Assembly: GCA_021797815.1 (NCBI GenBank)
Contig: JAJZYZ010000015.1
Coordinates: 1 to 45,272, forward strand
DNA from: Bacillota bacterium
GTDB lineage: Bacteria; Bacillota; Sulfobacillia; Sulfobacillales; JAIMBI01
DNA length: 45,272 nucleotides
Direction of reading: 5' to 3'
Shown here: piece by piece, positions 4,738-40,684 of the stretch
How the letters are laid out: the number at the start of each line of letters is the position of its first letter
Position numbering within the stretch: position 1 is the first letter of the stretch
The notes under the pieces: model-generated
What the model saw: only the letters and a program-made list of their open reading frames with translations
Told to the model about the DNA's origin: nothing
Databases searched by the model: none
Position numbers and translations under genes: made by a program

Positions 4738-4802
4738 AGAACCGCTCACAAGCGTCGCGGCTCGTGTTACTGTCGAGGCAAGACCCGTCCCCTCGGGAGC
4801 GG

Positions 4803-4865
4803 TCGGTTAGGTCGGTTAGATCCGTCAGATCGGTCATAGCGGTCAGGTCGATTAGATCGGTTAGA
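4803..4865 (+). repeat. seven tandem copies of a degenerate 9-bp unit
   Basis: Seven consecutive 9-bp units fill this tract, with consensus TCGGTTAGA. They read TCGGTTAGG, TCGGTTAGA, TCCGTCAGA, TCGGTCATA, GCGGTCAGG, TCGATTAGA and TCGGTTAGA. The tract lies between the ctaG stop and the ribosome-binding site of the UGA-containing glutaredoxin gene. It could be read as a Ser-Val-Arg repeat in one frame, but nothing else supports translation. A protein-binding array, a slippage tract or a neutral repeat are all possible. Confidence 0.8.
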
Positions 4866-4899
4866 GTGAGAGCATGGCGACTCGAGGAGGCTTATGAAG

Positions 4900-5166
4900 A
4901 TGGCCGAGATTATCATTTACGGCACCCCCACCTGAAGCGACTGCATCGGGGCGAGAGAGTTTCTCTCCCAGCATGGACATCCCTTCACCTATCACGACGT
5001 CGTGGAAGACCCGGCGGCGAGGGAACGGGCCGTGGCGTTGAACGATGGTCGGTTCGGAAATCCCACCATCCTGGTGGATGGCACCATCGTGATGGCGGGC
5101 GGGGTATTCACTCCTGACATTTTCTCAGGAGTAGACGGCCTTCCCACCGAAATTCAAGAAGCGTAG
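4900..5166 (+). CDS. selenocysteine-containing glutaredoxin-like protein (UxxC), UGA at 4933-4935
   Basis: About 88 aa if the in-frame UGA is decoded as selenocysteine. The N-terminus reads MAEIIIYGTPT-U-SDCIGA. The beta-strand/TPT/CxxC layout is that of a glutaredoxin, with Sec12 replacing the nucleophilic cysteine and Cys15 resolving. Further on, GNPTILVDG supplies the cis-proline loop, and the helix-strand pattern continues to the end. The ATG at 4900 is preferred over 4894 because AGGAGG (4885-4890) is 9 nt away rather than 3. A hairpin directly after the UGA fits a bacterial SECIS (listed separately). Known biology: such proteins reduce disulfides or glutathione-like mixed disulfides, and selenium raises reactivity. 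A pseudogene or sequencing error is the alternative, but the neighbouring gene has a UGA at its catalytic position too. No sel genes are in the window. Confidence 0.82.
4950..4969 (+). promoter_or_regulatory. candidate SECIS hairpin of the glutaredoxin-like gene
   Basis: A perfect 6-bp stem (GAGAGA 4953-4958 with TCTCTC 4962-4967) closes a GUU triloop. Beyond a bulged C at 4952 the stem is extended by two G-C pairs (4950-4951 with 4968-4969). The loop G at 4959 is 24 nt after the last base of the UGA. Bacterial SECIS elements lie directly downstream of the UGA inside the coding region and carry a G near the start of a small apical loop, where SelB binds. This element meets those rules. Confidence 0.7.
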
Positions 5167-5181
5167 ACGACTCTCCCCGGG

Positions 5182-5210
5182 AAACGGCCCGCCAGCGGCG
5201 CGGGCCGTTT
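5182..5210 (+). terminator. strong hairpin between the two UGA-containing genes
   Basis: AAACGGCCCGC (5182-5192) pairs perfectly over 11 bp with GCGGGCCGTTT (5200-5210) around a 7-nt loop. The leading A run and trailing T run resemble an intrinsic terminator, but only three T follow in the stem and no further T run is seen. It could be a weak terminator, attenuator or RNA-stability element between the glutaredoxin-like and flavoprotein genes, giving partial read-through. Confidence 0.55.
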
Positions 5211-5275
5211 GTCGCGTTCGAAAGCGTCCCGGCGCCTGTGCAAATCCCGAATGCGCCATGAGGCATAATGAGCTC

Positions 5276-6628
5276 ATGAACAAAGAGCGGTTCGTGGTGG
5301 TCGGCGGTGACGCCGCGGGTATGACGGCCGCCTCCCAGGCCAGACGCCAGGCCCGTGAGCTGGAGATTGTGGTATTTGAACAGGGAGCCTACACGTCGTA
5401 TTCGTCGTGAGGCATTCCCTATCTAGTCGGCCAGTTGGTCGACGACACCGATGACCTGGTCGTCCGAACGCCCGAGGCTTTTCGTCGCGCGGGCATTGAT
5501 GCCCGCATCCGCCACCGCGTCAGCACCGTCGATTTGAGGCGCCGTGCAGTTGAGGTGGTCGACCTCGACGAGGGGCGGACCTACTGGGAACCGTATGACC
5601 ACCTCCTTCTGGCCACCGGCGCCCGTCCCGTGGTCCCCGAAGGAATTGATCCCGGTGTGGCCGGCGTGTACACCGTAAAGAGCCTCGACGATGCCCGTGC
5701 CATCAAGCTGGCGCTGCAGGCCGCCCCGGGCGCTTTTGTGGTGGTGGTGGGCGGCGGCTACATCGGGGTCGAGATGGCAGAGAACCTGCGAAGAACGGGC
5801 CGCTCGGTCACCGTGGTGGACCGGAACGCGACCCTGATGGCTCACCTCGACCCGGATATGAGCGCGCTTGTCACGGCGTCGGCCATCCGTCTTGGCATCA
5901 CCCTTGCGCTCGAGGAAGCCCTGATCAGTCTTGACGCGCCGGGGGGCGTGGTCCGTGGCGTCGAGACCGACCGGGCCCATCATCCAGCCCAAATTGTCAT
6001 ACTGGGCCTCGGGGTGCGGCCCGATGCGGCGCTCGCGGCGTCGGCCGGGGTGCCACTCGGCGCCGCCGGCGCCGTGCACGTGGACGAAGCCTGCCGCACC
6101 GGTGTCCCGGATGTCTTTGCGGCCGGCGACTGCGCGGACGCCTATGACCTGGTCGGCCGTCGACACGTGTACCAGCCGCTCGCCACGCATGCCAGCAAAC
6201 AAGGGCGCGTCGCGGGTCTCGCCATCGCAGGGCGGCCTGCCCGCTTTCCCGGAGTGACTGGCACCTCGGTGACCCAGATCGGCTCCTCCGATGTTTCACG
6301 CACGGGACTGGGGGAGCGTGAGATCCGCGCGCTCGGGCTCGACGCCGCCTCCGCGGCTATCTCCTCCACCACCCGTGTCGGCTATATGCCCGATTCTTCG
6401 TCGATAACGGTCAAGCTGTGGGGCGAGCGCGGCAGCGGCCGCCTGCTCGGCGGTCAGATCGTGGGGGGCGCGGGTGCCGGCAAACGCATCGACGTCATCG
6501 CCACCGCGCTCAGCGCCGCGATGACGGTCGAGGACCTCCTGGGCCTGGACCTCGCGTACTCCCCGGGCCTTTCCGACACCTGGGACCCCGTGCAGGTGGC
6601 CGCTCGGGTTCTCGTGCGCGATCTTTAA
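5276..6628 (+). CDS. selenocysteine-containing CoA-disulfide reductase-like flavoprotein, UGA at 5408-5410
   Basis: 450 aa including Sec45. The N-terminal FAD fold shows VVVGGDAAGMTAASQARR, then TSYSS-U-GIPYLVG. Family members (CoA-disulfide reductase, NADH oxidase, polysulfide reductase) carry a single redox cysteine exactly there (SxxxCG-P-Y). A second dinucleotide fold (VVVVGGGYIGVEMAENL) binds NAD(P)H, and VPDVFAAGDCAD is the second FAD motif. The C-terminal dimerisation domain ends with DLAYSPGLSDTWDPVQVAA, where the family has its conserved tyrosine. There is no rhodanese domain. The ATG at 5276 has CATAAT at 5264-5269 just upstream and only a weak ribosome-binding site; an in-frame ATG at 5258 is possible. 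A SECIS-like hairpin follows the UGA. Likely role: NAD(P)H-dependent reduction of a low-molecular-weight or protein disulfide, perhaps feeding the adjacent glutaredoxin-like protein (inference). Confidence 0.85.
5426..5443 (+). promoter_or_regulatory. candidate SECIS hairpin of the flavoprotein gene
   Basis: GTCGGCC (5426-5432) pairs with GGTCGAC (5437-5443): seven pairs including one G-U wobble, closing the loop AGUU. The loop G at 5434 is 24 nt after the last base of the UGA, the same distance as in the glutaredoxin-like gene, and both loops contain GUU. Its placement and loop fit bacterial SECIS rules. The conserved protein sequence around it (IPYLVGQLVDD) constrains the bases, so hairpin conservation would need a comparison. 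Confidence 0.7.
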
Positions 6629-28763: not shown

Positions 28764-28783
28764 CCAATAAACGCCCTGTGCCC

Positions 28784-28904
28784 CCACGCCGGCGAAGTTA
28801 GCTGACGGGTTCGGGTTGGGTCCCCGTCTCGCGGATTGCGAGATTCACCCCACAGAAACTGGGTCCTCCGCTCCCCGAGTGAATCGGGGATTTGGCAATA
28901 CAAG
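28784..28904 (-). ncRNA. c-di-AMP riboswitch (ydaO/yuaA class)
   Basis: The minus-strand RNA contains the class's conserved blocks in order. These are AATCCCCGATT near the 5' end, GCGGAGGACCCA, GGGGTGAATC, GGGACCCAACCCGAACCCG and the closing GTCAGCTAACTTCGCCGGCG. They match the ydaO consensus (GGGGGACCCA, GGGGUGAAUC, CCGAACCCG-CAGCUAACCUCG). A consensus promoter lies directly upstream and an intrinsic terminator directly downstream. Ligand binding in this class favours termination. The target here is a GT4 glycosyltransferase rather than the more usual hydrolase or potassium transporter. Confidence 0.95.
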
Positions 28905-28912
28905 GTGCCTAA

Positions 28913-39748: not shown

Positions 39749-40684
39749 TTATAGCGTCTCGACTTTTACGAGTTCAAGCGCGCTCGGGAAGCTGTCTGGC
39801 TTCTCCACGGAGACCACCGCCGCCCCCCGGTGGATCTTCTTGATGAGCGCCTGCAGACTGCGGCCCGGGCCGATTTCGACAAAGCGCCCAACATCTGCGG
39901 CCAGCAGGGCATGCACCGCCTGCTCAAACAGCACGGGATGGGACACCTGCCGGACCAGGCGTGGAACGGCCTCCTCGCCGGTGGTGACCCAGTAGCCGTC
40001 GACGTTGGCGATAACGGGAAATCGTCCCCGTTGCCATCGGGCCTGGCCGAGCGCCTCTTCCAGGCGGACTTCGGCCGGCTGCAGGAGGCGGCTGTGAAAG
40101 GGGGCCGAAACCGGAAGCCGCACCACCCGGGCCCCGGCCACCCGCGCCAGCTCCTCCACTGCCTGCAGGCCCGCCACCTCGCCGGAGATGACCACCTGGC
40201 CGGGAGCGTTGTAGTTGGCCGGCTCCACCCAGCCCACGTCGCGCACGCTCTCGCACAGCTGCAGGACGGCGGCCGCATTGAGGCCCAAAAGCGCCGTCAT
40301 ACCCGCCTCACCGTCGGGCACCGCCTCCTGCATCGCGCGGCCCCGCACCCGCGCGATGCGGACCGCATCGGCAAAGGGCAAAAGCCCCGACGCCACCAGG
40401 GCCGAGTACTCGCCGAGCGAAAGCCCCAGTCCCGCGCGTGGGTCCGTCGGCGGTTTGAGCGAGCGCCAGACGGCGACGCTCACCGCCAGAATGGCCGGCT
40501 GCTGGATTTCCGTCATACGAAGCCGACCTTCGGGATCGTTCCACATCAGATCCGTGAGCTCGTAGCCCAGGGCCTCGTCAGCCTCCTGGAACACTTCTCG
40601 CGCCTCTGGATAGGTGTCGTGGACCTCGCGGCCCATCCCGACATACTGGGAGCCCTGCCCCGGGAAAAGTGCGGCCCAGCTCAT
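39749..40684 (-). CDS. fabD: malonyl-CoA:ACP transacylase
   Basis: 311 aa. FPGQGSQYVGMG (residues 7-18) forms the oxyanion loop. The nucleophile Ser89 is in GLSLGEYSAL, where most family members have GHSLGE, so the residue before the serine is Leu rather than His. A later VSAPFHSRLL segment carries the catalytic His. The start overlaps the degV stop as ATGA. It charges ACP with malonate for the downstream synthases. Confidence 0.95.
   Translation of the reverse strand: MSWAALFPGQGSQYVGMGREVHDTYPEAREVFQEADEALGYELTDLMWNDPEGRLRMTEIQQPAILAVSVAVWRSLKPPTDPRAGLGLSLGEYSALVASGLLPFADAVRIARVRGRAMQEAVPDGEAGMTALLGLNAAAVLQLCESVRDVGWVEPANYNAPGQVVISGEVAGLQAVEELARVAGARVVRLPVSAPFHSRLLQPAEVRLEEALGQARWQRGRFPVIANVDGYWVTTGEEAVPRLVRQVSHPVLFEQAVHALLAADVGRFVEIGPGRSLQALIKKIHRGAAVVSVEKPDSFPSALELVKVETL

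Follow-up and report, generated by a model that had tools for sequence, protein, structure and literature searches.

Adjoining predicted selenoprotein genes for a glutaredoxin and a CoA-disulfide-reductase-like flavoprotein in a Bacillota bacterium

We find that two adjoining genes on the plus strand, one for a glutaredoxin and one for a flavoprotein resembling CoA-disulfide reductases, each carry a single in-frame TGA, and that both of these codons almost certainly encode selenocysteine (Sec). The genes lie in the window, by which we mean the whole stretch of 45,272 nt that was analyzed, from genome G000. A functional partnership of the two proteins is probable, though considerably less secure than the reading of the codons. 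The features are the following:

4900..5166, plus strand: Sec glutaredoxin gene, 88 aa, with a UxxC active site (PF00462 score)
4933..4935, plus strand: Sec UGA codon in the glutaredoxin gene (TGA shared with G001 and G003-G006)
4950..4969, plus strand: bSECIS hairpin of the glutaredoxin, 6-bp upper stem and GUU loop (fold, position, covariation)
5181..5212, plus strand: terminator-like hairpin in the intergenic gap, GC-rich and with TTT after it (conserved in window and congener)
5276..6628, plus strand: gene for a Sec CoA-disulfide-reductase-like FAD/NAD(P)H oxidoreductase, 450 aa (Pyr_redox_2 and Pyr_redox_dim)
5408..5410, plus strand: Sec UGA codon of the reductase (Sec45), at the single redox-active Cys position (alignment)
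5426..5443, plus strand: bSECIS hairpin of the reductase, 7-bp stem and AGUU loop (fold, position)

The two genes and their families

The glutaredoxin frame runs from an ATG at 4900, a start set from an AGGAGG and an ATG that are both conserved in congener G001, to a TAG at 5164-5166, and its TGA at 4933-4935 gives YGTPT-U-SDC. The reductase frame runs from an ATG at 5276 to a TAA at 6626-6628, with a TGA at 5408-5410 that gives SYSS-U-GIPY. Neither frame has any other internal stop, and the first-pass annotation was thus right in describing two neighboring plus-strand genes, otherwise open, with one UGA each at 4933 and 5408. A standard ORF list shows the reductase only as a 397-aa fragment from 5435; the locus is an example of two selenoprotein genes that are easily misannotated. 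The start of the reductase could instead be an upstream in-frame ATG at 5258. This ATG falls in a GCGCCATGRGGCATAAT block (5245-5278) directly 5′ of the assigned ATG, which is conserved in both congeners and for which a −10 element, a leader and the upstream start itself are possible readings. On the 5′ side of the glutaredoxin gene, an imperfect tandem array of short GGTTAGATC-like units occupies positions 4800-4870; the congener lacks this array.

The glutaredoxin scores 43.5 bits against PF00462 (gathering cut-off 22.9), which together with its UxxC motif places it in the glutaredoxin family. Its UGA occupies the position of the first catalytic Cys, which is Cys in the aligned homologues L028-L031. 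Like the members of the Uxx-star and UXX-star families it is a short glutaredoxin-like selenoprotein, but it falls below the curated cut-offs (NF041212, 42.2 vs 66; NF041114, 34.3 vs 72; NF041211, 21.3 vs 100). With the experimentally verified class of Sec glutaredoxins (UxxC; PMC13188914, Table 1) it shares the small fold, the Sec in first position and the retained resolving Cys; unlike these it is only weakly similar to solved redoxins and belongs to a family-specific clade in genera g1 and g3, where all six genomes in which it was found have the Sec form.

The reductase contains Pyr_redox_2 (183 bits) and Pyr_redox_dim (50 bits) domains (Pfam), one redox residue in an SxxxC/U motif and the C-terminal Tyr conserved across its relatives (Y370 and Y428 are invariant), as is found in the single-Cys CoA-disulfide-reductase-like superfamily. 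Its best NCBIfam models are CoA-disulfide reductases. Since the scores remain below the curated cut-offs (391 vs 458 bits for PRK09564, 388.5 vs 578.8 for TIGR03385), we treat CoA as a candidate substrate only. The Sec aligns with Cys in Cys-form orthologues (L085-L087 and others) and in the solved relatives, which are CoA-disulfide reductases, a CoA-persulfide reductase, an NADH peroxidase and NADH oxidases.

It was proposed earlier that selenoprotein forms of both families are already on record, and this agrees with Table 1 of PMC13188914, which lists the FAD-dependent oxidoreductase (CoA-disulfide reductase) with the motif UGxP as predicted with high confidence, beside the glutaredoxin. Fold family and Sec position are shared with that oxidoreductase, and UGIP fits its motif; the present gene differs in coming from a Bacillota-like order, in its adjoining Sec glutaredoxin and in the USxP of some relatives. 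With both families on record, what is new is the pairing, which is not named in the passages of PMC13188914 that were compared.

Evidence for selenocysteine

A bacterial selenoprotein was recognized by an in-frame UGA where homologues carry Cys, and both genes show this arrangement. Alignment of the homologues, with Sec in some and Cys in others for each gene, bears out the earlier placement of the UGAs at redox-active Cys positions. Both TGAs are identical in G001, and in both genes most codon differences past the UGA leave the amino acid unchanged, with post-TGA dN/dS of 0.091/0.955 (about 0.09) for the glutaredoxin and 0.141/0.936 (about 0.15) for the reductase; by this comparison of sequences the frames beyond both TGAs are under purifying selection. 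Synonymous sites are conserved directly after the TGA, where 13/14 codons of the glutaredoxin are identical compared with 27/62 (p=7e-4), and 11/14 compared with 165/391 in the reductase (p=0.007). The recurrence of the TGAs, the low dN/dS and the synonymous conservation argue against chance or decay, as the first-pass annotation had held, and also against error, and the hairpins kept in Sec forms (below) agree with this.

TGA is the commonest stop among the likely genes of the window, where it ends 18 of 34; the code has thus undergone no general reassignment. When the window was scanned for TGAs that bridge two coding-like segments, 10 candidates were returned, and in our own reading only those at 4933 and 5408 are real; the other eight bridged frames look like shadows on the strand opposite recognizable genes.

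Each UGA is followed by a hairpin with a G within the first two loop positions, in agreement with the bSECIS model given in PMC13188914. The GUU loop of the glutaredoxin hairpin starts 23 nt past the UGA (MFE -11.9), and the AGUU loop of the reductase hairpin lies 22 nt past it (MFE -12.6). Hairpins of the glutaredoxin type covary, with 96.9% of cells paired, six double changes and none of 500 shuffles as high; covariation is weak in the reductase hairpin, because that hairpin hardly varies. Every Sec form retains its hairpin (MFE -9.4 to -12.4), whereas both genes of three relatives that carry TGC have lost it (MFE about -2 to -4) although the protein is conserved, the loss on the glutaredoxin side being seen in Cys orthologues of a related fusion gene. 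We regard this loss in Cys orthologues as the strongest test of Sec coding. Judged by local folding energy alone, the hairpins near the UGAs do not stand out within these GC-rich genes; it was the comparative evidence that set them apart.

The earlier expectation that the genome would hold sel genes is borne out in part. selB is present (332 bits vs a cut-off of 242), and so is SelD (G000:C15:19166-20098, L008), which has an in-frame TGA of its own (SGUGCK) and is probably itself a selenoprotein; a complete absence of sel genes, which had been named as the outcome that would speak against Sec, is thus not what the genome presents. selA and tRNA-Sec were searched for in the G000 assembly and neither was found, a degenerate pattern scan for tRNA-Sec giving only apparent chance or unrelated matches. 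An Rfam model, used in place of that scan for the relatives, detected a strong tRNA-Sec in all six family relatives. Congener G001 has selA at C89:3467-4753 (minus strand), and G000 contig C126 starts, from its base 1, with DNA that matches G001 C89 from position 5597 onward, 844 nt upstream of where selA starts. In the congener, tRNA-Sec is found right at the end of contig C70; G000 contig C1 stops (at 39888) about 0.8 kb short of the matching position. As the congener has both genes and the G000 contigs end where they would lie, their absence is most simply explained by gaps in the assembly.

That the TGAs are sequencing errors, products of decay or stop codons read through without selenium is therefore very improbable. 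The missing selA and tRNA-Sec speak for such an explanation, but the assembly breaks where these genes lie, selB and SelD are present, the TGAs are shared by independent genomes, dN/dS is well below 1 past the TGA, and the bSECIS hairpins are limited to the UGA forms.

Two more glutaredoxin-like frames, each UXX-star-like and with one TGA, were noticed at G000:C27:575-754 and G000:C112:15035-15250; with these the genome would encode several selenoproteins.

Distribution of the pair in relatives

Across the order, a Sec- or Cys-type gene of the CoA-disulfide reductase kind adjoins a glutaredoxin domain in two architectures. One is that of the window; in the other, found in f3 genomes, the gene directly after the orthologous reductase encodes a fusion of about 261 aa that joins a pseudouridine-synthase-like domain (PF00849) to a glutaredoxin domain. 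The PF00849 domain of this fusion apparently lacks the catalytic Asp, having HRLM or similar in its place. The glutaredoxin domain carries UxxC in three fusion loci (L241, L245, L246) and CxxC in three others (L242, L243, L086). An identification of the fusion with HUGP/GUXX-star (NF045501) was rejected, as none of 101 genomes scored over the 325-bit cut-off and the domain is pseudouridine-synthase-like instead. The tree, limited by the shortness of the domain, gives no support to a descent of the g1 glutaredoxin from the glutaredoxin domain of the fusion.

The adjoining genes are Sec/Sec in five loci (G000, G001, G011, G029, G031) and Cys/Cys in three (G020, G030, G032), and mixed in none. 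In the tree the Cys reductases are nested inside a Sec clade (support 0.92-0.99), and the three Cys/Cys genomes still have selA; one or two concerted Sec-to-Cys changes are implied. Since related bacteria switch both genes to Cys together, we suggest that the pair works as a team. The matched states, with the bSECIS hairpin lost on both sides, amount to a natural experiment and suggest redox partners tuned together; we consider them good evidence that the two proteins are functional partners, though evidence of limited phylogenetic breadth.

The first-pass annotation had proposed a dedicated two-gene module. The matched neighbors support this in part, but in g3 relatives the glutaredoxin is present and a reductase of the same kind absent, and as these sister genera keep the one gene without the other, the glutaredoxin is not strictly dedicated. 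Several relatives have a Sec reductase without an adjoining glutaredoxin. Sec reductases also occur outside the order, in genomes labelled Deltaproteobacteria and Thermodesulfobacteriota, and the flanks of those in Deltaproteobacteria, up to about 4 kb, hold no such glutaredoxin. In genus g3 (G003, G004, G005, G006; L258-L261) the glutaredoxin gene lies about 7-10 kb from tRNA-Sec on one contig.

The two genes of the window are separated by a 109-nt gap that contains the terminator-like hairpin at 5181..5212. Its arms, AACGGCCCG...CGGGCCGTTT, are common to window and congener while the loop is changed, and a simple scan for T-run terminators did not call it. With such an element in the gap, the two genes, which share a strand, form at most a candidate operon.

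This hairpin, and the occurrence of each gene without the other in relatives, would fit an arrangement in which the reductase handles a persulfide, polysulfide or peroxide, with the glutaredoxin as an independent stress protein that is its neighbor by chance. The CoA-persulfide reductase, NADH peroxidase and NADH oxidase among the solved relatives point the same way. We nevertheless hold separate functions to be rather doubtful, given that a glutaredoxin domain adjoins the reductase repeatedly, in two architectures, and that the Sec/Cys states agree.

Proposed mechanism and known systems

In the single-Cys family, electrons pass from NAD(P)H to FAD and on to the one redox residue, and this in turn opens a small disulfide; the substrates of its known members are small disulfides, persulfides, peroxide or oxygen. 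The model that we favor, with moderate confidence, is that of an NAD(P)H-driven disulfide reductase for a low-molecular-weight thiol together with its redoxin. The UGAs of both genes would be decoded by SelB and tRNA-Sec by means of the hairpin just downstream. The reductase would act like the single-Cys CoA-disulfide and CoA-persulfide reductases, passing electrons from NAD(P)H through FAD to Sec45, which would then open a low-molecular-weight disulfide, with CoA disulfide or a CoA persulfide as the likeliest substrate. The glutaredoxin, with its UxxC motif, would be a thiol-dependent redoxin whose Sec attacks mixed disulfides on proteins, and it would be reset by a low-molecular-weight thiol that is itself kept reduced by the reductase. 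Together the two would form a selenium counterpart of the set of glutathione reductase, glutathione and glutaredoxin.

A direct relay, from NAD(P)H through FAD and the flavoprotein Sec to the glutaredoxin Sec without any small thiol, as the first-pass annotation had it, would resemble thioredoxin reductase and thioredoxin. The genes adjoin on the same strand, both encode Sec, and the Sec/Cys states match in relatives, all of which speaks for such a relay. But the family has one redox residue, its known members use small substrates, and neither a second Cys pair nor a C-terminal redox tail is evident in the reductase sequence. We therefore regard direct transfer as unlikely and prefer a small thiol between the proteins, since a single redox residue opens a small disulfide.

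That this thiol is CoA is a tentative guess. The fully specified version, in which a Sec CoA-disulfide reductase serves a CoA-using Sec glutaredoxin that removes mixed disulfides, with Sec and Cys exchanged together, is somewhat less probable still. If a CoA-disulfide reductase and its redoxin are indeed what the locus encodes, it would provide a concrete candidate for the 'CoAredoxins' that a review anticipates as working with CoA disulfide reductase (PMC10950700). The thioredoxin-like deCoAlating enzymes YtpP and TrxA of B. subtilis, considered with CoA disulfide reductase (PMC10136147), share the proposed logic of a thiol redoxin in a CoA system. Unlike the present pair, these are Cys enzymes and, as described in PMC10136147, are not linked by gene neighborhood, and the reaction proposed for them there ends in an intramolecular disulfide.

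Operons of selenoproteins are known as a kind, with grdA-grdB as an example, and PMC13188914 also cites the tandem use of Sec by Sec-Grx and Sec-MsrA. Like the present pair, each brings together two selenoproteins or their genes with a likely shared redox task.

Elsewhere in the window, a c-di-AMP riboswitch (RF00379, 78 bits) lies at 28772-28907 on the minus strand, at the upstream end of a frame extending to 27524.
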